DNA of 51,767 bases. Source: Clostridiales bacterium. Its GTDB lineage: Bacteria; Bacillota; Clostridia; Oscillospirales; Oscillospiraceae. A program made the translations under genes and the position numbers. The stretch's first letter is position 1; every line of letters begins with the position of its first letter. The notes beneath the pieces were generated by a model. That model saw only the letters and a list, made by a program, of their open reading frames with translations. It searched no databases and was not told the origin of the DNA. The stretch covers positions 1 through 51,767 of the forward strand of contig JAJQCW010000035.1 in the NCBI GenBank assembly GCA_021202515.1, in the 5' to 3' direction. Below are positions 7,545-51,694 of this stretch, piece by piece.

Positions 7545-9815
7545 TTACTCCTCTTCTCCGCTGGTTTTGGATGCAGATACGATTACTTTTCCCTGTAAGT
7601 CGGTGCGGTAGACGGTACATCCTGCTGCATCCAGCCGGTCCAACGTCTCCTGGGTGGGGTGACCATAGGAATTGTTCGCCCCCACGGAGATGATGGCCGT
7701 CTCCGGCTGGACGATGGTCAAAAATGTCTCGCCGGTAGAATACTTGGAGCCGTGGTGTCCCACCACCAGCACGTCCACGGCGGAGAGATTCTGTTCCTCC
7801 GCCAACAGCAATTCCGTCTCGCTGTCCATGTCGCCGGTGATGAGCACCTCGAAGTCCTCCGCCCAGACCAGGGCGGAGAGTCCGCTGTTGTTATCATCGT
7901 CCTCCTGGGTCACCGGCGCGAAAATTTCGATTTCAGCGGAGCCAAAGGAATTTGTCGTGTCCTCCGTCACCTTTATCAGCTCCACCTGGTATTCCTCCGC
8001 CAGCGTTTCGATCTCCGACCAGTGACCGCTGTCATCCTCGATGTCTGGAACGGCAATGACCTCCACCGTCACACGCTCCAGCAGTTGTTCTACGCCGTCA
8101 ACGTGGTCACTGTCAAAGTGGGTCAGCATCAGCAGTTCCAACTCGCTTTCGCCCACGTCGCCCAGTGCATCCGCCAGCACATTGCCCGCGTCGTCGCCAC
8201 CACAGTCCACCGCCACGGCTTCCTGCTGGGAGAGGAATAGCACACTCTGCCCCTGGCCCACGTCCAACACCTGAACGGTCAGCCCGCCGTTAGTCAGGCT
8301 GAGTCGGTTGAATCCAATCAGCAGGGCCAGCAGCACTATGAGGCCAATACAGCACCGTACCGCCCGTTTCCGCCACTGGGGACGAAATGCCAGCAACATT
8401 ACCACGGCATACACCGCCGCCAGCCATATGCAATAACCGGCGGTGTGACTGGTCAGGGAACTGTAGGGCAACCGGGAGAGAAAATCTACCACGCCGAAGA
8501 AGTAGGCGAACAGCGCCTTCACCGGCAGCGCCACCAGCCGGGCCAGGGGCATACTCAGGAAGGACAACCCCAGGGTCAGCAGCCCGCCGCCAAACAGCAG
8601 CGTCACCGACCACAGCACCAGCAGATTTGCCAGTGGCGCAACAAGGGAAATGGTCTCAAAGTAATAAATGCTGATGGGCAGGGTCAATACCGTGGCTCCC
8701 GCCGTGACGGAGATGCAGCCGCAGACCCATCTCTTGATACTCTTCCCCATCTTTCCCGCGGGCACGGGACCGCGCTCCAGCATCCAGCGGTTCAGCCGTT
8801 GGGTCACCAGGAAAATCCCCGCCACAGCGGTAAACGATAGCTGCAACCCCACGTTGTTGATGGAAAAGGGATTACAAATCAGCAACAGGAGCAGCGCCAG
8901 CCCCAGCGACCAGGGACCGTCGCTGTCCCGGCGAAAGAAAGGACCAAGCAGCGCCAAAAGGCCCATCACCGTGGCCCGAACCACGGACGGCCCTGCTCCG
9001 GTCAGCAGACAGAAGAACAGCAGCACGGGAACCGCCAGCAGCGATTTGAGCCGCCGGTCTCCAGGCAACAGCAGAAACCCACCGATGAGCAGCGAGACGT
9101 GGAGTCCGGACACCGCCACCAGATGGCGCAGCCCGGTACGGCTGAGCTGGTCGCCAATGGCGTCGGAAAGCTCTTCCTGCTCCCCGGTCAGGAGGGCCAT
9201 TAGAACCCCTCCGCCGTCGCCGGGGTAAAGCGTTTTCACCCGCTCCTGCATCACCTTCGCCGCCACTCTTGGCAGGAACCGGAGGGGAATTTCATCGTTG
9301 GACATGACCGTCAGTTCTGTCACCTTGCTGCTGACGGCGAAAATGCCCCGCGCGGTGTAGTAGGTGGGCGCGTCGGCGTAGGCTTTCTGCGGGGAAATGA
9401 TCGTAGCTGTGACCTCCAGCGTGTCACCGGGCTTCACCTCGTCGCAGTCCAGGCTGGTGTAAATGCGGGTGCGCACCTTCGCGCCGGAAGGCGTTTGCAG
9501 CGCCACATCCAACTGTCTGCCCCAACTGGTTTCGCCGGGGTAGTCCAATGCCACCGCCGTATAGGTTCCCGTCTGATTCCACAGCCGCTGAGCCGGACGG
9601 ATACGGAAGATCCCATAGAGCCCGAACCAAAACAGCATGACGGCCATCCCCAGGGCGAACCAGTTGTAGAGCTTCACCGTCCACGCTTTCCGCTCAAGGT
9701 AGAAGTAAAACAGTCCAACCAACCCAAGCGGAAAGCACAGCCACCAGGCATAGGACTGACTGACCAGCAGGCAGGTGATTGCTGCCCCGGCCAGGAACGT
9801 CCACCGCCGCTTCAC
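7545..9815 (-). CDS. comEC: ComEC/Rec2 DNA-uptake channel
   Basis: A 756-residue protein with the full ComEC layout: N-terminal helices and a soluble OB-like domain (about 60-200), the polytopic Competence domain with R-H-L-V-A-V-S-G-L-H-V-S near residue 235, and a C-terminal metallo-beta-lactamase domain. The latter has L-D-V-G-Q-G-Q and a metal-binding T-H-F-D-S-D-H-V-D-G motif, followed by V-V-G-H-H-G-S. It would move single-stranded DNA across the membrane in natural transformation. The length is close to the B. subtilis protein, so it is not truncated. The start is uncertain: GTG at 9815 is the only plausible start after the in-frame stop and has a weak ribosome site. Confidence 0.93.
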   Translation of the reverse strand: MKRRWTFLAGAAITCLLVSQSYAWWLCFPLGLVGLFYFYLERKAWTVKLYNWFALGMAVMLFWFGLYGIFRIRPAQRLWNQTGTYTAVALDYPGETSWGRQLDVALQTPSGAKVRTRIYTSLDCDEVKPGDTLEVTATIISPQKAYADAPTYYTARGIFAVSSKVTELTVMSNDEIPLRFLPRVAAKVMQERVKTLYPGDGGGVLMALLTGEQEELSDAIGDQLSRTGLRHLVAVSGLHVSLLIGGFLLLPGDRRLKSLLAVPVLLFFCLLTGAGPSVVRATVMGLLALLGPFFRRDSDGPWSLGLALLLLLICNPFSINNVGLQLSFTAVAGIFLVTQRLNRWMLERGPVPAGKMGKSIKRWVCGCISVTAGATVLTLPISIYYFETISLVAPLANLLVLWSVTLLFGGGLLTLGLSFLSMPLARLVALPVKALFAYFFGVVDFLSRLPYSSLTSHTAGYCIWLAAVYAVVMLLAFRPQWRKRAVRCCIGLIVLLALLIGFNRLSLTNGGLTVQVLDVGQGQSVLFLSQQEAVAVDCGGDDAGNVLADALGDVGESELELLMLTHFDSDHVDGVEQLLERVTVEVIAVPDIEDDSGHWSEIETLAEEYQVELIKVTEDTTNSFGSAEIEIFAPVTQEDDDNNSGLSALVWAEDFEVLITGDMDSETELLLAEEQNLSAVDVLVVGHHGSKYSTGETFLTIVQPETAIISVGANNSYGHPTQETLDRLDAAGCTVYRTDLQGKVIVSASKTSGEEE

Positions 9816-9896
9816 CGGCTGCGCGGCGTCCCAAGCCGCAAATTCTCTCTCGTTTTCTCCATTTCCGCTCTCTCATCGTCATCTTGTGTCAACAGC

Positions 9897-9922
9897 ATTG
9901 CCGCAGCGGATGCTGCGGCAAT
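9897..9922 (-). terminator. perfect hairpin between the HIT gene and comEC
   Basis: Perfect 11-base arms ATTGCCGCAGC (9897-9907) and GCTGCGGCAAT (9912-9922) with a four-base loop lie 25 bases after the HIT stop codon. No U run follows on either strand, so it may be a stability or pausing element rather than a simple terminator. Confidence 0.45.
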
Positions 9923-9947
9923 CTCTGCGCTGTTTTTTGATTGGAAC

Positions 9948-10283
9948 TCAGCCCGGAGGCCAGGTCATGTCCCGTCCGGCCAGCACATGGAAGTGCAGGT
10001 GGTGGACGCTCTGCCCCGCCTGGTCGCCGCAGTTGGAGACCACGCGGAAGTCAGTGATGCCCAGCTCAGCGGTCACTTTAGCGATGACCTCAAAGCAGTG
10101 GGCCACCACAGCGGAGTTTTCCTCTGTGACCGCGCCCGCAGAGGGGATGTGCTCCTTGGGGATCACCAGGAAGTGGACCGGGGCCTGGGGGTCGATGTCG
10201 TAAAAGGCATAGACCTGGTCGTCCTCGTAGACCTTCTTGGAGGGAACGTCCCCGCTGACGATGGAACAAAACAGACAATCCAT
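9948..10283 (-). CDS. HIT family (histidine triad) nucleotide-binding protein
   Basis: A compact 111-residue HIT protein. The triad H-L-H-F-H-V is near residue 98 within S-V-H-H-L-H-F-H-V-L, and the N-terminus M-D-C-L-F-C-S-I-V is typical of the HinT branch, with two Cys that bind zinc in some members. HinT enzymes hydrolyse purine nucleoside phosphoramidates and acyl-adenylates. It follows alaS by 45 bases with an excellent GGAGG site, so it is likely read in the alanine T-box operon. Hydrolysis of aminoacyl-adenylate leaking from synthetases is a known HinT activity, which makes that pairing sensible. Confidence 0.9.
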   Translation of the reverse strand: MDCLFCSIVSGDVPSKKVYEDDQVYAFYDIDPQAPVHFLVIPKEHIPSAGAVTEENSAVVAHCFEVIAKVTAELGITDFRVVSNCGDQAGQSVHHLHFHVLAGRDMTWPPG

Positions 10284-38941: not shown

Positions 38942-39000
38942 AGCAAAAGAACGGAAACCGACAAATGCTATACCGCAGGCACAAGACAGGGGGAACTTGT

Positions 39001-42000
39001 ATGTTGACCAAAGAACAGGGAACAAAACTGATAGAAGCCGCCAACGACGGGAAGTGGCGGTTCCAGCCCGCCGCAGAGGCGAAAGCAAAAGCGCTGAACA
39101 CTGCCATAAGCATCTTTGCGCCGCAAGCCCGACAGGAGGAGATCTTCGCGCTTTATGACACGACCATCTTCGGCAGCGGGAAAACCGGGTTCCTGCTGAC
39201 ATCGGAGGCGCTCTACCACGACGGCTTCCCTTTCCTTCTCAAAAAGCAGGGCACCACCACCCGGCTCCCCCTGGCAGGGCTGAAAAGCGTCAGGGCGGTA
39301 CCGGGAGAAAAACTGAATTTTAACGTCTACTATCAGGATGGGAGCAAAATCATGATCTATGCTTCCTCCACGTTCCACGACGGACTGCGGGCGCTGCTGA
39401 AAATCGCCATCAAACTGGCGAAGGAGGACGCCCCGGCGCAGACCGCCGAGCCGGAGCTGGAACCTGTCCCCGCCTCCGACCAGGATCAGCCAGAACAGAC
39501 GGACGAGACGGCCCGGCTGCTGGCCGAGTATCAGGCCCGATTGGATGAGCTGACCCAGGCAGTCAAGGCGGCGGAGGAGGCAAAAGCCGCCGCCGAAGCC
39601 AAGGCCGCCGCAGAAGCAAAGGCTGCTGCCGAAGCCAAGGCCGCAGCAGAGGCCAAAGCCGCCGCCGAAGCCAAAGCCGCAGCAGAAGCAAAGGCTGCTG
39701 CCGAAGCAAAAGCCGCTGCCGAAGCAAAAGCCGCAGCAGAAGCGAAGGCTGCCGCCGAAGCAAAAGCTGCCGCCGAGGCAAAAGCCGCCGCCGAGGCGTC
39801 CCCCGATGCCGACGCGCTCTATCAGGAGGGCAAGGCGCAGATGAAAGCCCAGAACTGGGATGCGGTCATCCGCTGCTGGACACAGGCGGCGGAGCTGGGC
39901 AACGCCAACGCCATGAAGGGTCTGTGCGACTTCTATCTGCTTGGCAGCATAGACGATGACGGCTGGGCCATTCCCTCCAGTGAGCCATATATTGATCCGA
40001 AGCAGACCATTTCCTGGGGAAAGCGGGCCATGGAGCGCGGCGTCGATGTGTCGCACTATATCGTGATGGCCTACCAGACGCTGGGGCAAAATGAAGAGGC
40101 ATACTCTTTCGGGAAACAGGCCGTGGCGGACGGCTGGAAAACGCAGTGGGCGATGATGCGCCTGTGTATCGACCTGGAGCGATATGAGGAGGCAATTTCC
40201 TGGGGCGAAAAGTGGGACGCCGCCCATGGCGGCTCCATGGCGAAGGATTGTCTGGAGGAAACGGCAAAGACTGCGCTCAAATATGCCGCCACCAGCGAGG
40301 AATATGGGCGGATGGACGAAGCCCTGAACGACCGGAAGAAAGCCGCAGGTCTGGGGAACCCGGAGGGCATGTATCTGCTGGCCCGTATGTACGAGCTTGG
40401 GCAGGGAACGCCCCAGGACCGGGAGAAGGCCCTCGCCCTGTATGAACAGGCGGCGGCAAAGGGGTACAACGCCGCCGCAGCGGCGAAGGCAGCAGCAGAG
40501 GCAAAAGCCGCCGCCGAAGCAAAGGCCGCTGCCGAAGCGAAAGCTGCCGCAGAAGCCAAAGCTGCTGCCGAGGCCAAAGCTGCCGCCGAGGCCAAAGCCA
40601 CCTCCCCGGAGGAGCTGTTCGCCGCCGGTTTTGCGGCCTATCAGGAAAAACAATATGACCGCGCATTTCCTCTTGTGGAACAAGCCGCCCAGCAGGGCCA
40701 CGCGGAGGCACAGCACTATCTGGCGCTTTTCTATTTCAACGGCAGGGGCTGTGCGGTAGACAAAGCAAAGGCCCATGATTGGTGGGAAAAGGCCGCCCGG
40801 CAGGGTCATGCAGAGGCGCAGCACAACATGGGGGCCTACTATTCTAAAAATGGCAAGGATAGGAGCAAGGCCCTCTACTGGTACGAGAAGGCCGCAGCCC
40901 AGGGCCACGAAGGTGCGCTGTACTTCCTTGGCACGTGCTATGAGGAGGGCATGGGCGTTGCCAAAGACGCGAAAAAGGCCCTTGCGCTATACGAGCAGTC
41001 CGCGGCAAAAGGGTATCTGCTGGCCGAATTTGCTGTGGACAGAGTAAAGACTTCCATGCCCGCTGCCAAACCCGCATCCAAGCCGAAAACCGCGCCCAAG
41101 CCGGAACCGGCAAAACAAGCCGCCCCCGCGCCAAAACCCGCGCCCAAGCCCGCACCTGTGGAGCAGCCCAAGCCCGCGCCAAAGGCAACCAGCGACGCAA
41201 AGGAGGAATCGACCCACTGCATCAGCGCAACGTACATGTATAACGACAACGGCGCATACTATTTTATGGAAAATGAAACGTACGAACTGTTCGAGGCGCC
41301 TGCCGGAGCGCTGGAGGACGCCTTTGGCGATGAAGATGACAATTGCCAGGTCATCCTGTACATGTGGGGAAACAAGGTCATCCGCGTCAAAAAGACGACG
41401 GATGCGTCCGCCCTACAGGATTTGGTGGACGCGGGAGTTGCGGCCTATCATGCCAAAGCGTATCATAAGGCGGTCCCGCTTCTGAGCGGAGCCGCCAAGC
41501 AGGGCAGCGCAAAGGCGCAGCACTATCTGGGCGTTTGCTACGATTTCGGCTATGGCATGAAGGAGGACAAGGCCAAAGCCGTCGAATGGTACGAGAAGGC
41601 CGCCCAGCAGGGCTACGCAAATGCGCAGTACAATTTGGGGTATGACTATGAATATGGCGAGGGCGTAACGAAGGACAAGGCCAAAGCCTTCTATTGGTAC
41701 GAAAAGGCCGCCCAGCAGGGCCACGCAAGGGCACAGTGCAATTTGGGGTATTGCTACGATTTCGGCTATGGCGTAACGAAGGACGAGGCCAAAGCCTCCG
41801 AATGGTACGAAAAGGCCGCTCAACAGGGCCACGCACGGGCACAGTACAATCTGGGGTATAACTATCAGCACGGCGAAGGCGTTCTTCAGGACATAGAGAA
41901 GGCCATTGAACTCTACGAGCAGGCTGTGGCAAATGGATTCACGCTTTCTAAAGGTTCCTTAACGCAAACCATAAATGAATTGAAGGGCCGCGCGGAAGAA

Positions 42001-42729
42001 AGGAGGATGTCAGGCTCCTTCGTGCTGGGGTTCTCGTATTACACCGGGCAAAACGGGCTTCCAAAGGACCTGGATATGGCGATCTATCACGCTTACGCAC
42101 CCGCGAAGTGGGGCGACGTGCAGGCACAGCTCCTGCTGGCAAGATGCTATCTGGACAGGAGAAAGACCCCCCAGGACGAAAAAGAGGCCCTTGCCTGGTT
42201 CGAAAAGGCGTCCGAGCAGGGCAGCTTCATCGCGCAGTACAACATCGGGTGCATGTATGCGGAGGGCAGAGGGGTCCGAAAAGACCTGAAAACCGCCGCC
42301 GCCTGGTTCGACAGAGCGGTGGATACCGCCTGGGCGGCATATATCAACTGGATGGACCACCCATCCCATCGAATAAACGACACAAGCTGGGACGAAGGTC
42401 AAGGTGCGAAACCACTCGTCTTTCTGGTCGCCTATTGCTATGCCTCCGGCTACAGAGTGCGAAAGAACGAGAAAAAGGCCGTCGCCCTGTTTGAAAAGGC
42501 ATGTGAATCCCTCGGTCAATGGTTCTATGACATCGCTGAGCTATATGACAAAGGCTGTTGCAGCATGGCTAAAAACTGGAAGATAGCAAGGAGTTTTTAT
42601 CAGAAAGCCCGTGCAGCGGGATGGGACGACAAACATGAAAAAATGTATGGTATCGAAAGGCGTCGTTTTTGTCCAATTTATGATGATCGCGGTCTTGTGA
42701 TACAGTACAGATCCTTCTTCCTCCTCTGA
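39001..42729 (+). CDS. giant Sel1-like repeat protein with PH-like head and AAAEAK helical linkers
   Basis: A 1242-residue protein without signal peptide or membrane helix, so probably cytoplasmic. Order: a head (about 30-145) with I-F-A-L-Y-D-T-T-I-F-G-S-G-K-T-G-F-L-L-T, resembling small bacterial PH-like domains; an AAAEAK linker (196-267); a first block of Sel1 repeats; a second AAAEAK linker (497-532); more Sel1 repeats (Q-G-H-A-E-A-Q-H-Y-L-A pattern); a Lys/Pro/Ala-rich linker; a small unknown domain (about 740-800); and a long final Sel1 array with C-Y-D-F-G-Y-G-x-x-K-D-x-A-K-A units. Sel1 repeats are protein-binding scaffolds used in signalling and protein turnover. The target is unknown. 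Two orphan genes follow in the same direction. Confidence 0.88.
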   Translation: MLTKEQGTKLIEAANDGKWRFQPAAEAKAKALNTAISIFAPQARQEEIFALYDTTIFGSGKTGFLLTSEALYHDGFPFLLKKQGTTTRLPLAGLKSVRAVPGEKLNFNVYYQDGSKIMIYASSTFHDGLRALLKIAIKLAKEDAPAQTAEPELEPVPASDQDQPEQTDETARLLAEYQARLDELTQAVKAAEEAKAAAEAKAAAEAKAAAEAKAAAEAKAAAEAKAAAEAKAAAEAKAAAEAKAAAEAKAAAEAKAAAEAKAAAEASPDADALYQEGKAQMKAQNWDAVIRCWTQAAELGNANAMKGLCDFYLLGSIDDDGWAIPSSEPYIDPKQTISWGKRAMERGVDVSHYIVMAYQTLGQNEEAYSFGKQAVADGWKTQWAMMRLCIDLERYEEAISWGEKWDAAHGGSMAKDCLEETAKTALKYAATSEEYGRMDEALNDRKKAAGLGNPEGMYLLARMYELGQGTPQDREKALALYEQAAAKGYNAAAAAKAAAEAKAAAEAKAAAEAKAAAEAKAAAEAKAAAEAKATSPEELFAAGFAAYQEKQYDRAFPLVEQAAQQGHAEAQHYLALFYFNGRGCAVDKAKAHDWWEKAARQGHAEAQHNMGAYYSKNGKDRSKALYWYEKAAAQGHEGALYFLGTCYEEGMGVAKDAKKALALYEQSAAKGYLLAEFAVDRVKTSMPAAKPASKPKTAPKPEPAKQAAPAPKPAPKPAPVEQPKPAPKATSDAKEESTHCISATYMYNDNGAYYFMENETYELFEAPAGALEDAFGDEDDNCQVILYMWGNKVIRVKKTTDASALQDLVDAGVAAYHAKAYHKAVPLLSGAAKQGSAKAQHYLGVCYDFGYGMKEDKAKAVEWYEKAAQQGYANAQYNLGYDYEYGEGVTKDKAKAFYWYEKAAQQGHARAQCNLGYCYDFGYGVTKDEAKASEWYEKAAQQGHARAQYNLGYNYQHGEGVLQDIEKAIELYEQAVANGFTLSKGSLTQTINELKGRAEERRMSGSFVLGFSYYTGQNGLPKDLDMAIYHAYAPAKWGDVQAQLLLARCYLDRRKTPQDEKEALAWFEKASEQGSFIAQYNIGCMYAEGRGVRKDLKTAAAWFDRAVDTAWAAYINWMDHPSHRINDTSWDEGQGAKPLVFLVAYCYASGYRVRKNEKKAVALFEKACESLGQWFYDIAELYDKGCCSMAKNWKIARSFYQKARAAGWDDKHEKMYGIERRRFCPIYDDRGLVIQYRSFFLL
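39586..39801 (+). repeat. 18-base coding repeat array encoding AAAEAK (first linker)
   Basis: Twelve tandem units of 18 bases, the last one diverging, each encoding Ala-Ala-Ala-Glu-Ala-Lys. Units differ at synonymous positions (GCC/GCA/GCT/GCG, GAA/GAG, AAG/AAA). The protein sequence is therefore kept while the DNA drifts. The product should be a long single alpha helix like domain II of TolA. Confidence 0.9.
40489..40596 (+). repeat. 18-base coding repeat array encoding AAAEAK (second linker)
   Basis: Six tandem 18-base units with the same AAAEAK product and synonymous drift as the first array, about 690 bases further along the same gene. Confidence 0.88.
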
Positions 42730-42824
42730 GCGGGTGCGGCAGGGCAGCGCCGGGATACGGGGTCAGAAGCGGACGGCTCTGGCCCCGACGGGGCGAACAA
42801 TGATTCGAAAAGGAGCAACTGACA

Positions 42825-43163
42825 ATGGAAAAAGAGTATTTCAAGCTGAAATGGGTGGAGAGCGGCCACTATTCCTCCATGAGCGACCTGAACAGCTCCA
42901 ACGCCAGATTCATCGACTACGTCCGGGACGAAGCGGGCAGCCCTATCGGCATCGAGGTGGAGTACGACGGCGGCCACGGCTACGGCTATGACAACAGCCA
43001 CCAGAGGAAGAAGCTCTATCCCCACAAAATGACGGATCTGGCCTATTGGTATACGGACACCTCGGGAGGCGGCTCGGACTGGGATGACGGCTGTATCCCC
43101 AATTTCGTGGAGCTGATCCCCGTCGAGGAGCTGACCTACGGGGAGAAACAGGGCGAACAGTAG
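42825..43163 (+). CDS. hypothetical protein, acidic and Gly/Tyr-rich
   Basis: A 112-residue protein I do not recognise. It starts with a clear AAAAGGAG site before the ATG, has no signal peptide or membrane helix, and contains Gly/Tyr/Asp-rich stretches (G-G-H-G-Y-G-Y-D-N and D-T-S-G-G-G-S-D-W-D-D-G) that look like surface loops of a beta-rich fold. It lies 95 bases after the Sel1-repeat gene on the same strand and may be co-transcribed with it. Confidence 0.7.
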   Translation: MEKEYFKLKWVESGHYSSMSDLNSSNARFIDYVRDEAGSPIGIEVEYDGGHGYGYDNSHQRKKLYPHKMTDLAYWYTDTSGGGSDWDDGCIPNFVELIPVEELTYGEKQGEQ

Positions 43164-43192
43164 GCGCAGGTTCAGTAGACCGGGGGGAATGT

Positions 43193-43737
43193 ATGGCAGA
43201 ACGAGTGATATTGGAGTACAGGGACGGGAGCGCGCGGGCGCTGCCCTCCCCTCTCCCCTGCTGCGCCGGGGACCTTGCCGCTGCGCTGGAGCCGGTGGAC
43301 GACGGCGTGGCCCTGGCGTGGATGTACACGGGATTCCTGGAGAAAGAACACAATGGACACCGGGTGTTTTACACTGGCCTTTGGGGGCGTGTGGGGCAGT
43401 TTTACCGGGAGAAAAAGACCGCTGTGGACGCCTTTGACCGGGCGGATTATCAGGCGGAGGTCTGGACGTTTTCCACCTCCCCGGAGCGTCCCGGCAGCGT
43501 CCAGGCCCTGGAACTGCACCCCCTCAGTTACGGCGGCGCGCCCCAGGGGGGGGCTGCGTCCTGCGGACTGCGGGGGACTTGAAGCGGTTCCTGGCCACCG
43601 CCCAGCCAGACACAAAGCTCCTGGCCCCCAGCCGGAATTTCGAGCTGGAGGGCGCGCTGGTGGACGGGGAGGGCGTATGCCTGTATCTCGGCCAGGACAT
43701 CCAGGGCAGGGATTATCTGTTTATGGCGCTGGATTGA
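43193..43737 (+). pseudogene. orphan gene interrupted by a frameshift at a G8 tract
   Basis: The reading frame from ATG 43193 (E-R-V-I-L-E-Y-R-D-G) ends at a stop at 43580. The frame that continues sensibly (L-K-R-F-L-A-T-A-Q-P-D-T, then L-Y-L-G-Q-D-I-Q-G-R-D-Y-L-F-M-A-L-D and TGA at 43735-43737) is offset. The two join if the run of eight G at 43546-43553 gains one G, giving 181 residues. This is a decayed gene, a sequencing error at the homopolymer, or a phase-variable gene in its off state. No family is recognised for either part. It lies 29 bases after the preceding orphan gene. Confidence 0.7.
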
Positions 43738-43872
43738 CGGATGGCTCCTAAACGAAGGCACCCAAAGCCAATGGAACCTGTCGAAAACGCGCCCTGAAAA
43801 AGTCAATCCTTTGCGTTTTTTCGTGATGGTTATGATATTCTATTGCGGTTTTTTAGCACTTTATTCAAAATG

Positions 43873-43900
43873 AGGCGCTGGAGCAGTTGCTCCAGCGCCT
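43873..43900. terminator. perfect 28-base palindromic terminator between convergent units
   Basis: Arms of 13 bases (AGGCGCTGGAGCA and its complement) with a two-base loop, followed by TTTT on the plus strand. It lies 32 bases beyond the stop of the minus-strand gene at 43933 and can serve both the plus-strand orphan genes and the minus-strand operon. Confidence 0.8.
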
Positions 43901-43932
43901 TTTGCGACCGATTCGATAAATTCACGTATCCC

Positions 43933-44898
43933 TCACTCACCCAACCTGGCATAGATCTCGTCAATGTTCTCTTCCAACTGTTCGATTTGCCGCTGGAGTA
44001 CCGCCGCCTGTTCCTCATACGCCGCCTGGTTGTCCGATTCGAGCGCATTGATCCCAGAAAGTTCCTCAACCACCTTCTCCACCGTGGAGAAAGCGCAGTC
44101 ATCCTGCTCTGTGTACGCCTGCATCGTGTCGAGGAGCGAGGTAACATAGGTTTCCGGCAGCGCGTCAGAACCAATACTGTCTGTCTCAAATACCACTAGC
44201 ATGGCGGACTTATTGTTATAAAGGGCAGCCAGTCTGTCTTCCACCGTTGTTCCAGAGGAACTGAGATAAGAGTAGTCAAAATACACAGCTCCATCGGCTG
44301 TCTGGCCCGCTTCAGGCGCCTTGGCGTGATAGCTCGTGTAACCCGCAAACCCGTCCTCCAGGAGCAATTGGATGTTGGATTCACTGCTGTAGTCGCTCCG
44401 CAGGAGAAACACACCCGTGTGCTGCCGACCAGCGGCTTCCAATCTGGAGAGGGCGGACAGCACCGCCTCGTTGGTCTCCTGGGAAAACGCCGGTGCATAC
44501 AGCACGATCTCCCACTCATCCTCCACTGCGCCAAGGAACTGCTCCAGCTCTGTTTGCTCCATAGTGCAGTCCAGAACCAGTACCGGAGGAAATTGATAGG
44601 TTTCCGCCTTTTCCGCAATGTAATTTAAATCCGCCGTGTCTGAGCAAAGAAAGCCTACCATCAGATCTCCCGCATCTCTGGTGTAGGAAGCGGCGTTCTC
44701 CAACGCCTCCAATTCCGCCTCCATCTCTTCCATCTCCTGCTCGTAGGGCTTGGCCTCCTCTACCGCTGCCTCGATGGCGGCGGTTTCCGCCTGCTGCTCC
44801 TGGCGGTTCGTGTAAAGCAGATACCCCAGGCCGCAGGCCAGCAGGATACAGAGGATAGCGCAGATAATGTTGCGGATAAGAGTCCTTTTTACTTCCAT
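43933..44898 (-). CDS. membrane-anchored protein with terminal coiled coils, function unknown
   Basis: A 321-residue protein. One N-terminal membrane helix (I-I-C-A-I-L-C-I-L-L-A-C-G-L-G-Y-L-L) is followed by an acidic coiled coil (40-72), a globular domain (75-275) with alternating beta and alpha segments and no catalytic motif I can identify, and a second coiled coil (285-321). The fold of the middle part has a faint look of a degenerate polysaccharide deacetylase or sugar-binding barrel, but I would not assign it. It lies 15 bases after the protease-exporter gene and is the last gene of the operon before a strong terminator, so it probably works at the cell surface with that cassette. Confidence 0.8.
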   Translation of the reverse strand: MEVKRTLIRNIICAILCILLACGLGYLLYTNRQEQQAETAAIEAAVEEAKPYEQEMEEMEAELEALENAASYTRDAGDLMVGFLCSDTADLNYIAEKAETYQFPPVLVLDCTMEQTELEQFLGAVEDEWEIVLYAPAFSQETNEAVLSALSRLEAAGRQHTGVFLLRSDYSSESNIQLLLEDGFAGYTSYHAKAPEAGQTADGAVYFDYSYLSSSGTTVEDRLAALYNNKSAMLVVFETDSIGSDALPETYVTSLLDTMQAYTEQDDCAFSTVEKVVEELSGINALESDNQAAYEEQAAVLQRQIEQLEENIDEIYARLGE

Positions 44899-44913
44899 GA
44901 TGTGCCTCCCGTT

Positions 44914-47022
44914 TTAAAGCACTTCTTCGGTGATCTTCGTGTGCTCAAACACCAGCCGTTTGCCGCAAATCTTCATCGCAGCCGGGCGATGGGTCACGAT
45001 CAGCACCGTCTGGTCGCCCAGCGCTTTCAGATTTTGCAGCAGCCTGCGCTCCGTGGCCTCGTCCAGGGCGGAGGTTGCCTCGTCCAGCAGCAGTACAGGC
45101 GCGTTCCGATACACCGCCCTGGCGATGGCGATGCGCTGCATCTGCCCCTCGGACAGACCCGCGCCCTTTTCACCCAACACCGTGTTGTAACCGTCGGGCA
45201 GCTCCCGGATGAACTCGTCCGCGCAGGCGATTTGACAGGCCCACTCCACCCGTTCCCGCTGGGCTTTGGTATACGGCGTGGCGTGAAGGAAGTCCACCGC
45301 CTCGTAAACGGTCCCTGACATCAACATATTGCCCTGAGGAACATAGGCAAACCACCGGCGGGTGGACGGGCCGATGTCGATGTCCCGCCCCTCACAGGCG
45401 GCGCAGAGCCGCCCAGACACAGGCGCGTAAATGCCCAGCAAGAGTTTCAACAGGGTGCTTTTTCCAATGCCGGAAATGCCGGTCAAAGCGACAATTTCCC
45501 CTGGGGCAACGGCAAAGGTGGCGTCACTGATGACCTCTTCCTCGCCGTCGTCGTAGATGAAGGTCAAATTCTCCGCCCGGAAGCCGGTGAACCGAGGCAG
45601 GTCCTGCCGGGCGGCGGCGTCCTTGGGCAGTTTCTCCAGCTCGATGAGCCGCTCCGCCGAGGCCAGCATGGAATAATACTGGGGCACAAAGCCGGAGATG
45701 TTGGCAAAGGGGCTTCTGATCTGCCCGATCAGCTCCAGCACAGCGGTCAGGGTGCCATAGGTCAGCGTCCCGTTCAGGATGCCGAACCCACACCACACCA
45801 GGCCGAAGAGATAGCTGCCTTGCATCACCGCGCCAAAACCCACGTTGCAGACGTTGGAAAAGGTTTTTCGCTTCATGCGGGCGCGCTTGTGGGCGGCGGC
45901 CTTCTCCTCCGTCCGGCCTGCGGCCATGTCCTCCGCCTGAAAGCTCTTCAAAATCAGAATACTCTCCACCGACTCCTGGAGCCAGGAGCGCAGCTTGCCG
46001 TCGGCCTCCTGCACCTCTTTGTGGAGGCCCTTCATCCGGCGGCGGAACAGGAACGTCACCCCCAGCATGACCAGCCCGCCCGCCAGGAACAGCCCGCCGA
46101 ACCGCCAGTCCAGCACCATCAGCACCGCCATAGCGCAGACCAACTGCACCGCCATGGAACACACGCCGGGGATCAGGTCGGTGGCGTAGTCCGCCACCAG
46201 CTTCGCGTCGTTGGTCATGCGGTTTTGCAGCTCGCCGGTGTGGAAGCCTTTCAGCCCACTGTAGCTGCTGCGGAGGATGTTCTCATACGTATGCTCTTTC
46301 AGCCGGTTCTCCAGAGAAGCCCGGATGCGCTCGTCCTGCTGGCGGACGACGGCCCGGAGGCCCAGCCGCACCAGGATGACGCTCAGGTACACCCCGCACC
46401 ACCGCAGGAACCCGGCCCGGTCCAGAGCCACGGCGCAGTCGATGGCGCTGCGCATGACCAGGGCCAGCAAAACGGTGAGGAACGCCGCAGCTCCCGTGCA
46501 GGCAGTCAACAGAAGGATACCCGCCAGGCTGCCCTTGACCATTTTGACCACCCACCCCAGGGTGGTATCCCCCAACAGCAGCTTGCCCAGCCGTTTGACG
46601 GACTCTTTCGCCCGGTGTTTCAGCAGGCGGAGGGGATAAATCAGGTTCCAAAACCAAACGTACAGCCGGTAGGGGAAGTCCGTGGTGTGAATCTCCCGGT
46701 TGCCCCGCCAGACCGTCTCCAGGACCCCCCTGACGGCGGAAAGCGGCACTCGCTCCAGGCCAAAGGTGTTGTCGCCGCGGATGAGGCAGACATCCCCCTC
46801 GAACCCCAGGACCCGGTGCAGCACCTGGGTACCGTCTGGGCGGACATAGAGGACCACGTCGTTCTTTTTGGGCCTGCCCTCCAGCCGCCGGATGAGGACG
46901 TGGGAGGAATAGGTATATAGCAGCGGCTGCATACTGACCCCCTTGATGGGGATGACGATATAACCGGCGGATTCCAGCTCGTCCAGCTTGGTGGTCTGCT
47001 CTGCATTGTAGGTCTGTTCCAC
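44914..47022 (-). CDS. ABC exporter with N-terminal signal-peptidase-like (S24/S26) domain
   Basis: A 702-residue fusion. Residues 1-115 form a signal-peptidase-like domain with the Ser in K-G-V-S-M-Q-P-L (S30), a His in V-L-H-R-V-L-G (H69) and the box I-R-G-D-N (83-85). His in place of the usual Lys is the SipW/ER type. A six-helix ABC membrane domain follows (about 165-470), then an ATPase with Walker A G-I-S-G-I-G-K-S-T, signature L-S-E-G-Q, Walker B L-L-L-D-E and switch T-H-R. I choose the GTG at 47022, eight bases after AAAGGAG, over a GTG overlapping the PqqD stop. It parallels C39-containing peptide exporters, but with a serine protease domain. The cargo is inferred to be the 40-residue peptide at 48170-48292. 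Confidence 0.88.
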   Translation of the reverse strand: MEQTYNAEQTTKLDELESAGYIVIPIKGVSMQPLLYTYSSHVLIRRLEGRPKKNDVVLYVRPDGTQVLHRVLGFEGDVCLIRGDNTFGLERVPLSAVRGVLETVWRGNREIHTTDFPYRLYVWFWNLIYPLRLLKHRAKESVKRLGKLLLGDTTLGWVVKMVKGSLAGILLLTACTGAAAFLTVLLALVMRSAIDCAVALDRAGFLRWCGVYLSVILVRLGLRAVVRQQDERIRASLENRLKEHTYENILRSSYSGLKGFHTGELQNRMTNDAKLVADYATDLIPGVCSMAVQLVCAMAVLMVLDWRFGGLFLAGGLVMLGVTFLFRRRMKGLHKEVQEADGKLRSWLQESVESILILKSFQAEDMAAGRTEEKAAAHKRARMKRKTFSNVCNVGFGAVMQGSYLFGLVWCGFGILNGTLTYGTLTAVLELIGQIRSPFANISGFVPQYYSMLASAERLIELEKLPKDAAARQDLPRFTGFRAENLTFIYDDGEEEVISDATFAVAPGEIVALTGISGIGKSTLLKLLLGIYAPVSGRLCAACEGRDIDIGPSTRRWFAYVPQGNMLMSGTVYEAVDFLHATPYTKAQRERVEWACQIACADEFIRELPDGYNTVLGEKGAGLSEGQMQRIAIARAVYRNAPVLLLDEATSALDEATERRLLQNLKALGDQTVLIVTHRPAAMKICGKRLVFEHTKITEEVL

Positions 47023-47054
47023 GCGGCCCGCTCCTTTCGCTCCCTGTCCTTCTG

Positions 47055-47336
47055 TCACTCCGTCAAAAAGCCCGCGTCCGACATTTCCCGGAGCATCGCC
47101 TTCACGTCGTCCGCGATATCCGCCCGCTCCTGCTCCGTTTTTGCGCCGTATTGCTCCGCGAGGACATCCACGATTTCATCCGCCGTTTTGCCGTCAGCGA
47201 CGCCCTCCCAGATGGTTTTGCCCGTCTCGTTGAGCTTGACCATGCCGTGGAACTGGCGGCCCGCCTGTCCCGTGGCGACCACCACATACTTGCCCGCGAC
47301 CCTGCGGATGACAAATCCTTCTTTAATTTTCATCAT
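47055..47336 (-). CDS. PqqD family peptide chaperone (RiPP recognition element)
   Basis: A 93-residue PqqD-like winged helix-turn-helix. It has the family pattern: a beta-strand start (K-I-K-E-G-F-V-I-R-R-V-A-G-K-Y-V-V-V), then L-N-E-T-G-K-T-I-W-E-G-V-A-D-G-K-T and a helical tail. PqqD-like proteins bind leader peptides of ribosomal natural products and present them to enzymes. It overlaps the kinase-like gene (ATGATG, four bases) and is followed by the exporter. Its context with a small peptide gene makes leader binding the likely role. Confidence 0.88.
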   Translation of the reverse strand: MMKIKEGFVIRRVAGKYVVVATGQAGRQFHGMVKLNETGKTIWEGVADGKTADEIVDVLAEQYGAKTEQERADIADDVKAMLREMSDAGFLTE

Positions 47337-48085
47337 TGCGCTCCCTTCATGCCGGAATAGGCCACCTGCGCCGCCTCCGGCTCCATGTTGCAGCCCAGGG
47401 CATACATGCCCACCGCTTCTCCGAGCTGCTCTGTCAGCGCCAGCGTTTTCCTCATCGCCTGCTCATCGTCCGGCCGGTAGGACTGCCGGAGCAGCAGCGG
47501 ATACCCTGTCCAGAAATCGATCTGTTCGATTCGGTTGCACTCCGCCCGGTCGAGAAAACAAATCGCTTTCAGCGGGACCGCCGTGTTGGTGCTGCGCCTG
47601 TGCTTGCCGTCCCAGGGCGTCCCGTAGGCGATTGCGCCCTCCTGCGTCACCTGGATCAGCGGCTTGTCGTCGTTGACCATGACCGCTCTGTCTCGGAACA
47701 GCTCCATCCACAGGCGCGTGTGGGTACTCTTGCCGGTGCCGCTGGGCGCGGCGAACAGGTAGCCTTCCCCGTCCACCGCGACACAGGAGCCGTGAACCAG
47801 CAGTGTGTCATAGTCCAGCAGCGCCACGGCGATCTTCCGGTAGGCCGCCAACGTCTCCAGATACTCGTCCGGGAACTGCCGGGGCGCTCTCCCCTGCGCT
47901 TCGTCCTCCCGCTGGGACTTGTCCCGCTCAAAGGCGATGTCCTCCGGACAGACCGAGAGAGTGACGTCCGGGGTGGCGGAATCCACCAAATACTGGCAGC
48001 AATAAACCCGCAGCCAGGGGTACAGGGGGAAGATGCGGATCACCCTTCCCGCCAGTCGGATGCAAAACGCGTTTTCGTTTCCCAT
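47333..48085 (-). CDS. HPr-kinase-like serine kinase of a RiPP cassette
   Basis: A 250-residue protein with the P-loop A-P-S-G-T-G-K-S-T-H (about 113-122), followed by M-V-N-D-D-K-P-L-I and Y-G-T-P-W-D-G-K-H-R-R, the arrangement of HPr-kinase-like ATPases that sit beside PqqD-like genes. In the paeninodin lasso family a homologue phosphorylates a Ser of the precursor. The N-terminal domain of true HPr kinase is missing. I choose ATG 48085, seven bases after GGAG. A terminator hairpin lies just upstream, so the kinase is read only when transcription passes it. Substrate inferred: the Ser-rich tail of the 40-residue peptide. Confidence 0.88.
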   Translation of the reverse strand: MGNENAFCIRLAGRVIRIFPLYPWLRVYCCQYLVDSATPDVTLSVCPEDIAFERDKSQREDEAQGRAPRQFPDEYLETLAAYRKIAVALLDYDTLLVHGSCVAVDGEGYLFAAPSGTGKSTHTRLWMELFRDRAVMVNDDKPLIQVTQEGAIAYGTPWDGKHRRSTNTAVPLKAICFLDRAECNRIEQIDFWTGYPLLLRQSYRPDDEQAMRKTLALTEQLGEAVGMYALGCNMEPEAAQVAYSGMKGAQ

Positions 48086-48102
48086 AGCTCGCTCCACCGT
48101 TG

Positions 48103-48135
48103 AAAAAGGGGCGGCAAGATAATCCTCACCGCCCC
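48103..48135 (-). terminator. attenuating terminator between the precursor peptide and the kinase gene
   Basis: On the minus strand GGGGCGG (48135-48129) and CCGCCCC (48114-48108) form a stem followed by five T (48107-48103). It lies 34 bases after the peptide stop codon. Such partial terminators behind precursor genes keep peptide mRNA in excess over enzyme mRNA. Confidence 0.85.
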
Positions 48136-48169
48136 TCGTTTCATTCCGTCTTCTGTTCAGAAAAAGACA

Positions 48170-48292
48170 TTACTCATCAGAAACAGAATCAGTATCACGA
48201 ATAGATTGGATATTGACTCCGCTGGTCACGACAATGTCCTCCGCCCGGAACAAAAGCACTTCCATCTCATGCTTTTCGTACGCTCTGTTCAT
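48170..48292 (-). CDS. putative RiPP precursor peptide, 40 residues
   Basis: A small gene with a perfect GGAGG ten bases before the ATG at 48292 and a stop at 48170. The N-terminal part (Y-E-K-H-E-M-E-V-L-L-F-R-A-E-D-I-V-V-T-S-G) resembles the Y-x-x-P-x-(L/M)-E-V-L leader of lasso precursors of the paeninodin family and of short clostridial peptides I have seen next to kinase/PqqD genes. The tail V-N-I-Q-S-I-R-D-T-D-S-V-S-D-E is acidic and Ser-rich with no Cys. It starts 15 bases after the secreted protein gene and precedes kinase, PqqD and exporter genes. The product is unproven; a small regulatory or structural peptide is possible. Confidence 0.8.
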   Translation of the reverse strand: MNRAYEKHEMEVLLFRAEDIVVTSGVNIQSIRDTDSVSDE

Positions 48293-48307: not shown

Positions 48308-51300
48308 TTACTGAACTGTCGTGCCTGTAAAGGTGACCGTTCTCGCCGTTCCGTAAACCATGGTCCCGTCCTGGGTCACCCAATAGGGCGTGACAGTGAT
48401 TTCCGTACCCGCGCTGATTTTGGAGACGCTGAAATCGTTGTAGATCAGCTTCGAACCGGTCACCACGTCTCCGCCGAACAGCTTCGCTGCGGTATACCCG
48501 GATGCTGTAGTCGAATATTTCGTGACCTCCACCGTCTCTTCGGTCCCGTTATACTCGTACTTGAACCCGACTTTCGCGTAATTTTTGCTGTCCACCGCAG
48601 CGATAAACCGCAGGGTCTTGGCAACCCCCTTCGTAGACTGAACGACAATCTTCACCTGCATATAATCAGCGGAAACATACTTAGCGTATACCGTCATATC
48701 GCCGGTAATATTGCTGAAGTCCGCAGCCTCTGTGCAGCTTTCATCCATGAACCAGCCACCAAACAGATAGCCGTCTTTTTCGGTGCAAGTGATCTCTACA
48801 TCGTCGCCCTCAGCGACCTCCTGGGTGGAAACGTTATCGCCGTCATACTTGGTGATGGTGTAGGTGGTGGTCTCCTCCGGGACAGAGGCCGTCAGCACAC
48901 ATGCATCGCTGACAGCAAGGGACAGCACCACAGGAGTAGCATCATCGTCGGGATAAGATGTTGTGGACCCAATTTTTGTATCCACATAGGTAAAGTTAGA
49001 GAAGTCTTCCGTGAAAGTGATGGTCCGCTGCCATGCGCCCGTCACCATGACGCCATCCTGCGTCACATAGTACGCCTGCATGGTAACCGGCTGCTCTATG
49101 TCATCTTTGTAGTCAGCCAGGAGTTCGTCCAGCGCCTGTGTCACCGCAAGATAGCCACCTACATTAAACAAATTCATGCAGGTTGCATGTACGGATTCAT
49201 AACCCTCTTCTGCGCCGGGATATTCGATATCCAGTCTGCTGTAAATCTCTGTTCCCGCATACGCTACGCTTGAATCGGTAAGCTTCGTACCCGTTTCCCC
49301 AATGGCACCGGTCGTATATGTAGAATCATCGTCAATGATAAAACCAATTTCGCTGTAGTTTTCATCATCAATGCCGGTCACGGGCCACAGATTTACGATG
49401 CCGTCCGCGTCCGTCCAAGCATAGAGACACTTGACCTCAAGATAATCATCGCTGATTTCCTTGACATAGTAGGTCTTGTCCGCTTCCGGATAGAACGCCA
49501 GGCCGTCGCCAAGTTCCGTCGTGCCGTCAATCGGTTCATACCAATATCTATCAGTATACACACCCGCATAGAGGCAGTTCTCAGAAACGCCGTAGCCAAG
49601 CTCCTCCGAATACGGCTGGGTCAGGTCGTAAGAGGCATCCTCTTCATAAACGACTGTGTATCTGTTAGTGTTGCCGTACACGACGGTGAAGTATTTGGGT
49701 TCCTCTCCCACTGTCACATAGGTTTCGTAATTTGCATCTTCCACACTGACCTGACTCGTGATATAACCCTCTGGAATATATTCCTCCACTTGGGTCGCCA
49801 CGGCGTCCAAATCTGTGCCATAGAAGTACCCGTCAATGATTGACAGGGAAGCGTACGTTTTACAGTTGACTACATTGTTCCCGGCAGCGTTTTCCACACG
49901 ACCGCCACTGATCGTCACGATGGCTTTGTAATAACTCGAACTCGAGGAAGTACCATCGGCAGTAACCGTAGAAACATCTGCATTTGCCGACTGCATGACG
50001 CCGCCTGTTATGTTAAGTATCGTACCATATGCATAAACCGGGTAACTGTTGCCTGTGCTTGCAGAATCGGTGCTGATCGTCCCGCCTTCGATTGTCGCTG
50101 TAATCCGGTTGCTATATCCGGTGACATACACTGCATACAAGTTACTGGCCGCGCCTGCCGTGGAAATGGTACCGCCGGAGATAGTCAGAACGCCAATCTC
50201 TGCGTTACTCGTCGATTGTCTACCAAAGTACACCGCATAGCCGGTTCCGCTTGGTATATTTGCGGAAATCGTACCCCCGGTTATAGTCAAGGTTCCGTAC
50301 TCCATATAGATTGTTTTTGATTGGCCGCTGGGTGATTTGCCTGTGGCCGATATGGTGCCGCCGCTGATAGTAATGGTGCCGCCGAGCGAATAGATTGCAC
50401 AGCTTGAAGCGCCTGTGGCCGATATGGCGCCGCCGCTGATGGTAATGGTTCCGCTAGCGGACGTCTTATAGATGGCATAGCCGCTGGTGCTCGCGGTGGA
50501 AACGGTGCCTCCAGTAATTTCGACAGTAGGATCATATCTAAGATACATAGCATATTGGCCAGATGCAGTACCTGTAGTCACTTCTCCTGACGTGACGGTT
50601 ATTTTAACCTCTTTAACGGTGCTACCAGAAGCACCATAAGCATATATTGCACAGCCGTTGCTTGATCCTGTTACATTTTTCCCATTTTTATCCAATCCGG
50701 TAGAAACCCTGCCTCCGCTTACCTCAACAGTACAGTTTCCTGCGCAATAGATTGCATAACCAGAACTGGCCGTATTGGTAACAACAGCACCAGAGTTTAC
50801 CGTCACCTTTGTGGACGATGCAACGCTGGTTCCCCGCATATAGATGGCGCCGTATCTGTCGCTCGTGGTATTCACAATGTACCCGCCATTTAGAATGACT
50901 TGGCCTCTCTCCACGATACGAAGGATATAATCGCCACTGTTTACCATGCTCCCGCTTCCGACAGAATCAATAATCGTGAGCGCCTCTCCTTCGAGCGTAT
51001 CTCCAGCCCAACCAAGATAACCGCCGCCCTCGTTCGTGATCGTGCAACCGTTTAAGTCAAGCGTCATTGTTTTGCCGCTGCTTATCGCTGCGGACAGATC
51101 CACATCGGTAAGCAGCTTAACGGTTTCCGATGCCTCGGCCGCCGCGATGGCCTCAGCCAAGGTCGCATACCCTGTGCCACCGACAGAGGCAACATAGGTT
51201 GTGGTTTCGTCCCCATCGACTTCCTCCGAAGCAACCGAAATGCCGTTGTTCGCGGCAGGCGTTTCTTCGGTTTCTTCCTCTTTGGCTTCGGTCTCCTCAA

Positions 51301-51523
51301 CGCTGTCCTCTCCGGCTTCCTCCACCGGGTCGGCCTCCGCAGAGCTGTCCCCATTGGTTTCGTCCGCAGGGTCGGTCTCTGTGGTGGCTTCGCCCGTCTC
51401 GCTCGCTATCGGCTCGCTGCTGTCTTCCACGTCCGCCGCATACACAGGCGTGACAGCCAGCGAAACCAGCATCGCAAGGGACAAAAGCAGGCTCAGCAGG
51501 CGTTTTGCTTTCGTTTTAGCCAT
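48308..51523 (-). CDS. large secreted beta-helix surface protein
   Basis: A 1071-residue exported protein. The signal peptide ends at V-Y-A (residue 29). A Glu/Thr/Ser-rich low-complexity region follows (30-95), then a beta-helix (about 100-580) built of repeats like T-I-S-G-G-T-I-S-A-T-G. Two related C-terminal domains share W/Y-V-T-Q-D-G-x-M-V near their ends (around 845 and 1055), and an InlB-type repeat (D-G-Y-L-F-G-G-W-F-M-D) lies between them. There is no LPXTG motif, so it is released or held by other means. ATG at 51523 has GGAGG ten bases upstream. It is the first gene of the operon that contains the peptide, kinase and exporter, behind a G10 promoter. Confidence 0.9.
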   Translation of the reverse strand: MAKTKAKRLLSLLLSLAMLVSLAVTPVYAADVEDSSEPIASETGEATTETDPADETNGDSSAEADPVEEAGEDSVEETEAKEEETEETPAANNGISVASEEVDGDETTTYVASVGGTGYATLAEAIAAAEASETVKLLTDVDLSAAISSGKTMTLDLNGCTITNEGGGYLGWAGDTLEGEALTIIDSVGSGSMVNSGDYILRIVERGQVILNGGYIVNTTSDRYGAIYMRGTSVASSTKVTVNSGAVVTNTASSGYAIYCAGNCTVEVSGGRVSTGLDKNGKNVTGSSNGCAIYAYGASGSTVKEVKITVTSGEVTTGTASGQYAMYLRYDPTVEITGGTVSTASTSGYAIYKTSASGTITISGGAISATGASSCAIYSLGGTITISGGTISATGKSPSGQSKTIYMEYGTLTITGGTISANIPSGTGYAVYFGRQSTSNAEIGVLTISGGTISTAGAASNLYAVYVTGYSNRITATIEGGTISTDSASTGNSYPVYAYGTILNITGGVMQSANADVSTVTADGTSSSSSYYKAIVTISGGRVENAAGNNVVNCKTYASLSIIDGYFYGTDLDAVATQVEEYIPEGYITSQVSVEDANYETYVTVGEEPKYFTVVYGNTNRYTVVYEEDASYDLTQPYSEELGYGVSENCLYAGVYTDRYWYEPIDGTTELGDGLAFYPEADKTYYVKEISDDYLEVKCLYAWTDADGIVNLWPVTGIDDENYSEIGFIIDDDSTYTTGAIGETGTKLTDSSVAYAGTEIYSRLDIEYPGAEEGYESVHATCMNLFNVGGYLAVTQALDELLADYKDDIEQPVTMQAYYVTQDGVMVTGAWQRTITFTEDFSNFTYVDTKIGSTTSYPDDDATPVVLSLAVSDACVLTASVPEETTTYTITKYDGDNVSTQEVAEGDDVEITCTEKDGYLFGGWFMDESCTEAADFSNITGDMTVYAKYVSADYMQVKIVVQSTKGVAKTLRFIAAVDSKNYAKVGFKYEYNGTEETVEVTKYSTTASGYTAAKLFGGDVVTGSKLIYNDFSVSKISAGTEITVTPYWVTQDGTMVYGTARTVTFTGTTVQ

Positions 51524-51694
51524 GGTTGTCTTTCCTCCATTCTTTTCATATGGATTTTATGGCGCGCCTTCTTTGAGGGCGTCGTCTGCGTGGGTTGGAC
51601 GCGAAGTATCCATTCGTCCGTACCTAAATAAGACCAATCACTGTCTCAATAAGCCTCTCCCCCACCGAACAGCCGAACCACCTCTGCGCACAGC

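Follow-up and report, generated by a model that had tools for sequence, protein, structure and literature searches.

A putative phosphopeptide cassette with a fused signal-peptidase-like protease and exporter in a Clostridiales bacterium

Organization of the operon

The window analysed here is a stretch of 51,767 nucleotides from a gut Clostridiales bacterium of the family Oscillospiraceae (assembly GCA_021202515.1, contig JAJQCW010000035.1), whose genome amounts to 2.63 Mb and is 97.6% complete. Between 43933 and 51523, its minus strand carries, in this order, BIG, A, a hairpin with a U-run, K, B, S-D and CC, followed by a terminator-like stem. This series is probably a cassette for a ribosomally synthesized and post-translationally modified peptide (RiPP) of the kind known as linear polyphosphorylated peptides (LPP), in which peptide A would be phosphorylated, its leader cut by the S domain and the phosphopeptide exported by the D domain. 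An earlier note on this DNA had described a small precursor-like peptide, a terminator, an HPr-kinase-like ATPase, a PqqD-like protein, a protease-exporter and a membrane-anchored protein. The order and positions of these parts are borne out by the coordinates of the open reading frames (ORFs) and by domain matches, and the observation as a whole is confirmed.

BIG (48308..51523) encodes a putatively secreted protein of 1071 amino acids (aa) with an InlB/Flg_new-type repeat near its C end (Flg_new, 36.4 bits). Its stop lies 15 bases from the gene of peptide A (48170..48292), which has GGAGG 10 bases 5' of its ATG and encodes the 40-aa sequence MNRAYEKHEMEVLLFRAEDIVVTSGVNIQSIRDTDSVSDE with Tyr5, F15-x-A17 and the putative phospho-Ser24. 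K (47333..48085) encodes an HprK-like kinase; its ATG is at 48085, and the ORF is open from a GTG at 48097. B (47055..47336) encodes a discrete RiPP recognition element (RRE) of the PqqD family (PF05402, 55.9 bits; cut-off 23.4) and is the one PqqD relative of the genome. S-D (44914..47058) encodes 714 aa, in which an S26 signal-peptidase-fold domain is fused to an MsbA-like ATP-binding cassette (ABC) exporter. CC (43933..44898) encodes a membrane-anchored protein with long helices flanking a predicted polysaccharide-deacetylase (CE4/NodB) fold. K overlaps B, and B overlaps S-D, by four bases each, an arrangement like that of a tight operon.

The hairpin between A and K (48101..48143), followed by UUUUU, is terminator- or attenuator-like. 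The fold reaches -32.9 kcal/mol over 91 nt with a z of -3.2, and it is absent from the list of a simple terminator scan. That scan gave 6 sites in the region against a mean of 7.5 in shuffled sequence, so such sites are weak evidence as a class; the stem 3' of CC (43873..43900, 12 pairs) is the longest of them.

Peptide A is a real gene, recognized above chance. When the 1199 ORFs of the window were searched with a leave-one-out profile of 34 other leaders, A was the sole match at E<=10 (E 5.8e-6), and a profile from the 27 leaders of named genomes alone found it at E 7.6e-6. In its own genome, A is the single precursor-like place at E<=1 in the profile search. No family was found in Pfam and NCBIfam for A or the relatives tried, or in PHROGs for A or one relative.

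Comparison with linear polyphosphorylated peptides

The nearest published system is the lpp cluster of Paenibacillus alginolyticus (PMC13381572, 2026). According to the text of that paper, the experimentally studied HprK-like kinase LppK phosphorylates one core Ser, the RRE LppB presents the leader, the signal-peptidase-like LppS cuts it and LppD serves as the export pump. Residues important to RRE binding are Y-16 and P-13, and to cutting F-3, E-2 and T-1; S3 is the sole phosphosite, for which Thr is no substitute (PMC13381572). The window matches this system part by part, with a precursor bearing Tyr, F-x-[T/A] and, further on, a Ser, a discrete RRE of PqqD fold with the Asn and Asp equivalents (N36/D77 against N33/D70 of LppB), an HprK-like kinase, a signal-peptidase-like leader peptidase with Ser/His/Asp, an MsbA-like exporter and no cyclase. 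It differs in that the leader spacing has changed, His stands for the leader Pro, S and D are fused and a CE4-fold membrane protein, CC, is added; the precursor lies behind a large secreted protein, while the paper reports capsule loci (PMC13381572). The window cassette is therefore seen as a variant of the LPP kind, in which two features, the joining of cutter to pump and the association with a large surface protein, seem to be new. The suggestion of a new phosphorylation-based RiPP class fails because LPP has already been published (PMC13381572). The main text of that paper has no word starting with "Clostridi" or "Lachnospir", and clostridial members may be in its data tables. The literature search found no paper on HprK with PqqD in RiPP.

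Leader statistics rest on 52 precursor cores, of which the 80 named loci described below gave 36 and 12 further loci gave 16; all were found by profile, and the set is thus biased toward the motif. The first aromatic residue of the leader is Tyr in 46/52 and Phe in 5/52. Where LPP has its Pro, the residue is P in 27, L in 9, A in 8, V in 5, M in 2 and I in 1. The leader Phe is present in 49 of the 52, and small residues predominate two positions after it (T 12, A 9, S 7, V 6). The putative phosphosite further on is Ser in 50/52. When F-x-A17 of peptide A is aligned with F-x-T(-1) of LPP and Ser24 with S3, the window leader YEKHEMEVLLFRAEDIVVTS has His at the place of the LPP Pro and its F three residues nearer. 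The nearly invariant Ser24 of the EDxxxTS motif is the likelier phosphosite, rather than the Ser-rich tail. As a separate observation, L208 holds four tandem precursor frames ahead of one K-B-S set (9338-10147, minus-strand count), all with Leu at the leader-Pro place.

Asn36 of B is Asn in 16/17 and Asp77 is Asp in 15/17 aligned relatives, the window included; these residues were equated here with N33 and D70 of LppB, D77 by way of its spacing to the F74/M78/L83 positions. The B profile matched 5v1u, 6jx3, 9x90 and 9x8z in the PDB, with E 0.0014 for LppB (9x8z). Across 13 relatives, the P-loop and NDDKP residues of K are fully or almost fully conserved. Against curated models, K stays below threshold, with 18.4 bits for Hpr_kinase_C (cut-off 33.3) and 31.9 for ScmC (cut-off 125).

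The N-terminal domain of S-D has a predicted signal-peptidase/LexA (S26/S24) fold and reaches 27.4 bits against TIGR02227, below the cut-off of 47. Its active-site candidates, Ser42/His81/Asp96, are invariant in 12/12 aligned domains, and the Ser-His spacing of 39 is that of S29/H68 in LppS (PMC13381572). The exporter part matches ABC_membrane with 93 and ABC_tran with 91 bits, and the MsbA model is the best of 192 at 244.8 bits, under its cut-off of 602. The exporter with a Ser/His protease domain, as first described from the letters, is upheld. The fusion occurs in 6/32 genomes of the genus and in 0/37 named loci where both S and D were seen. An assembly artefact was rejected because six species' genomes share the fusion. 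The fused gene is under purifying selection, with a dN/dS of 0.137 against the sister genome G412. In another genome of the genus (G345, locus L201), A-K-B-S-CC is unfused, and a D-type exporter lies with an LppN-like gene about 5 kb away, which is plausible as the state before fusion.

An ABC exporter that carries a leader peptidase at its N-terminus is also the plan of the peptidase-containing ABC transporters (PCATs; PMC10885120). S-D differs in its signal-peptidase fold; the N-terminal C39 cysteine peptidase domain of PCATs was not found in it, and its substrate has no double-Gly site. By analogy with LppS, S-D should need an RRE, unlike PCATs. The fusion of cutter and pump is probably a serine-protease analogue of PCATs. 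A term search in the text of a review on RiPP leader proteases gave no "signal peptidase", "S26" or "SipW" (PMC10885120). Literature searches did not find a signal-peptidase fold fused to an ABC exporter described, nor a paper on RiPP with signal peptidase, PqqD and ABC transporter. A related but different fusion, of LasB to a transporter, is reported for two Ruminococcus genomes (PMC7533575).

From the LPP biochemistry, we infer phosphorylation, its site, cleavage and export as follows. A would be translated just behind BIG, and the RRE B would bind its Tyr-containing leader. K would add one or more phosphates to Ser24 of the EDxxxTS motif. B would then present the F-x-A site (FRA/EDIVVTSG...) to the signal-peptidase-like domain, which would cut after A17, and the ABC part of the same polypeptide would export a short acidic phosphopeptide, predicted as EDIVVTSGVNIQSIRDTDSVSDE. 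Ser24 lies at +7 under the FRA/E cut and not at +3 as S3 of LPP does, so we infer this cut site too. CC and BIG may work on the outer side of the membrane, possibly at the glycans of the wall. The earlier proposal of a secreted linear phosphopeptide, cut from its leader by the fused protease with no cyclase involved, agrees with the LPP family (PMC13381572) and is supported in part; Ser24 is a likelier site than the Ser-rich tail that it had pointed out.

Relatives of the cassette and alternative explanations

A kinase profile built from 13 sequences found at least 589 encoding stretches among genome contigs, and the best 80 were kept as named loci. Of these, 74/80 carry labels of Clostridia or of families within them, and many come from the gut or the rumen; the other six labels are Alistipes, Prevotellaceae, Bacteroidales, Atopobiaceae, Kandleria and Physcocola. 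At the thresholds of this analysis, B lies near K in 62, S in 60 and D in 38 of the 80 loci. Where there is enough flank (53 loci), the numbers are 43, 42 and 28, and all three occur together in 27. A precursor is present in 33/80 loci and lies directly upstream in 24/80; where 1 kb or more of upstream sequence is present (71 loci), it is adjacent in 21 and anywhere in the locus in 30. The expectation that the peptide is conserved beside the kinase and PqqD genes therefore holds in part of the relatives.

Among 400 genomes of the window's family, 26 have a precursor match, 86 a kinase match and 23 both (Fisher 5e-14). After removal of the 8 genomes that fed the precursor profile, 16/18 against 79/392 have K (Fisher 2e-10); the kinase profile was also built partly from these 400 genomes. 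A full-length K on the same strand directly follows 14 of the 33 precursor matches in the 400 genomes. This co-inheritance is a direct observation, as are gene content, conservation and the predicted folds.

The LPP-type reading is preferred because of the part-by-part match to A, K, B, S and D, the invariant Ser/His/Asp of S with its LppS-like spacing, the nearly invariant RRE Asn, a phosphosite that is almost always Ser, where LppK uses Ser and not Thr, and the small residue at Phe+2, as in F-x-[T/A] of LPP. It is also preferred because 23/26 precursor genomes have K against 86/400 overall, the fused gene is under purifying selection and no lasso cyclase was found.

Several observations weigh against it. 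No precursor was found anywhere in 41/71 loci with 1 kb or more of upstream sequence, although at least one of them, L131, holds a divergent candidate. Two genomes of the same genus that have the S-D fusion (G401, G278) showed no precursor next to K/B, and that of G412 was recognized by eye and not by the profile. The leader departs from the LPP consensus YxxPxVLxHQxIxFETxxS, with Tyr to Phe 3 shorter; the Pro that LppB needs is His in A and is P in 27/52 relatives. A PDB profile search with K gave no relative at E<=0.1. The B profile scores nearer to the lasso RREs TbiB1 and TfuB1, and also to PbaB1, than to LppB. The NTP transferase LppN (PF14907) has 0 matches in the window's own genome, and 18/21 cassette genomes have one.

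The phosphate may alternatively be an intermediate, where K primes Ser for glycosyl or nucleotidyl transfer or for anchoring to a wall polymer, so that a glycopeptide or a wall-linked peptide would result. This is rather unlikely. The final product of LPP is unknown in the paper's account, which expects further modification (PMC13381572); of the ORFs of 320-420 aa taken downstream of the cassette in relatives, 25/31 are NTP_transf_5, and the polysaccharide-deacetylase fold of CC would fit as well. However, the window genome has no NTP_transf_5 match, and no second modifying enzyme was recognized in the cassette.

It is very improbable that the 40-aa frame is not the substrate and that K, B and S-D act on peptides encoded elsewhere. 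In the 400 family genomes, no full-length K was found directly downstream of 19/33 precursor matches, which would allow such an arrangement, but in the window's own genome the one such peptide found lies inside the operon with a Shine-Dalgarno sequence and the family motif.

Paeninodin-like lasso peptides share the HprK-like kinase, the PqqD-type RRE and the exporter. The window cassette differs in that the cyclase and the B2 peptidase are absent, the leader has Tyr in place of the paeninodin-type Trp, and the RRE has Asn where paeninodin RREs have Gly (PMC13381572). A PF00733 search with gene inspection found no lasso cyclase in the own genome, just as the earlier note had seen none in the cassette; there were two matches, of 26.6 and 24.4 bits (cut-off 21), spanning 53 and 58 of 354 positions. 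The two genes are presumably QueC and GuaA. No transglutaminase-like B2 peptidase was found in the cassette, in accordance with the earlier note. The one PF13471 match in the genome lies on a different contig and scores 24.4 bits, or 26.1 together with its neighbours, at a cut-off of 26; it falls in a 251-aa frame that we take to be an ordinary transglutaminase-like protein. A search of the 80 named loci with four AsnB-type ORFs recognized no cyclase near the cassette. Two ORFs matched; that of L102 was rejected as a SIS/GATase protein, and that of L089, a 152-aa AsnB-like fragment, is a candidate only. A degenerate paeninodin-type cluster that lost its cyclase and B2 peptidase, which the kinase with PqqD and the lasso RRE matches would favour, is rejected as extremely improbable on the own-genome evidence, the signal-peptidase-like domain in place, the purifying selection on S-D and the recurrence of K, B, S and D without a recognized cyclase (27/53 well-flanked loci).

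A putative link to surface proteins

CC has no conserved His, and a PDB profile search with CC gave nothing convincing. Compared with CE4/NodB-fold proteins, including the pseudoenzyme BA3943 (6hpa), the fold of CC sits in a membrane-anchored helical protein tied to a RiPP cassette. CC as a strict replacement of LppN was rejected; the ten CC-bearing genomes split into those where LppN was not seen (G000, G412, G080, G380) and those with it (G410, G401, G407, G278, G345, G379).

Precursors in relatives are often linked to large upstream genes. The 80 loci contain 36 precursors, 31 of them with 700 bases or more of upstream sequence. An ORF of at least 400 aa precedes 22/31 of these within 200 bases, against 130/777 ordinary genes of the loci (Fisher 1.3e-10); the ORF rules differ slightly, being stop to stop for precursors and start to stop without overlaps for the control. 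A crude test for a hydrophobic N-terminus was passed by 12/17 large proteins checked. Among the further 12 loci, L212, L214, L215 and L216 show the pattern clearly; in the remaining eight it is missing or questionable. L215 and L216 (genome G174) hold precursors with the same leader and Cys-bearing tails directly 3' of ORFs of 1916-1919 aa; no cassette genes were found within the fetched stretch, which suggests processing in trans.

In the sister genome G412, the window's 39037-46997 aligns at 91% DNA identity; the alignment stops some 20 codons inside S-D. Upstream of that point, the two genomes match only at the start of BIG (51306-51547, 75%) and in two short segments of K. K and B of G412 are 42% and 35% identical to those of the window, and their order is reversed; a different precursor-like ORF, noticed by eye, and a lipoprotein-like ORF accompany them. 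From the break in S-D and the divergence of K and B, it follows that BIG-A-K-B differs as a block while the common S-D-CC chassis is kept. The conserved block also includes, on the other strand and adjoining the operon, a 1254-aa protein with long AKAAAE repeats (38965-42729), Sel1-like by eye.

In relatives, a Ser/Thr/Pro-rich, stalk-like protein with a signal or lipobox is encoded near K, often between the precursor and K or B; none was seen in the window. The C ends of these stalks are often ELPFVP-like. Tails like ELPFVP or LPIIP occur on stalks near the kinase in L106, L109, L110, L121, L123, L127, L128, L133, L143, L148, L095, L196 and L212, and no precursor was seen in L121, L123 and L095. 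In L089, a protein anchored by its C-terminus has IDLPFVP close to its N end, which would again be the outer end. The peptide of L089 ends in SNELPFEKV, which we take to be like PapR-type pheromone ends. In 13 pairs, hand-picked from loci where both parts were seen, stalk tails score 299 with their cognate peptide tails against 222 for swapped partners (p 8.5e-4; residue shuffle p 5e-4). The likeness is partial, as L127, L128a, L110, L143, L148 and L196 score 17 or less, and the stalk tail of L212 (SLPIVP), a locus found later, has no matching peptide tail. The resemblance is suggestive only. Any role outside the cell is a guess. It is conceivable, though doubtful, that the phosphopeptide is one half of a surface system made for BIG, with the BIG/A/K/B block swapped between strains on the S-D and CE4-fold chassis, and that the LPxxP-like tail of the stalk and the tail of the peptide compete for, or both recruit, the same wall partner.

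RiPPs built on phosphorylation were worked out in a Paenibacillus; these findings would extend them to a peptide family common in gut Clostridia, and the cassette names a testable substrate (A) and site. In its architecture, the joining of a signal-peptidase fold to an ABC exporter is a parallel to PCATs. The association with large surface proteins offers a concrete lead on the purpose of such phosphopeptides, a question that the LPP paper leaves open in its text (PMC13381572).

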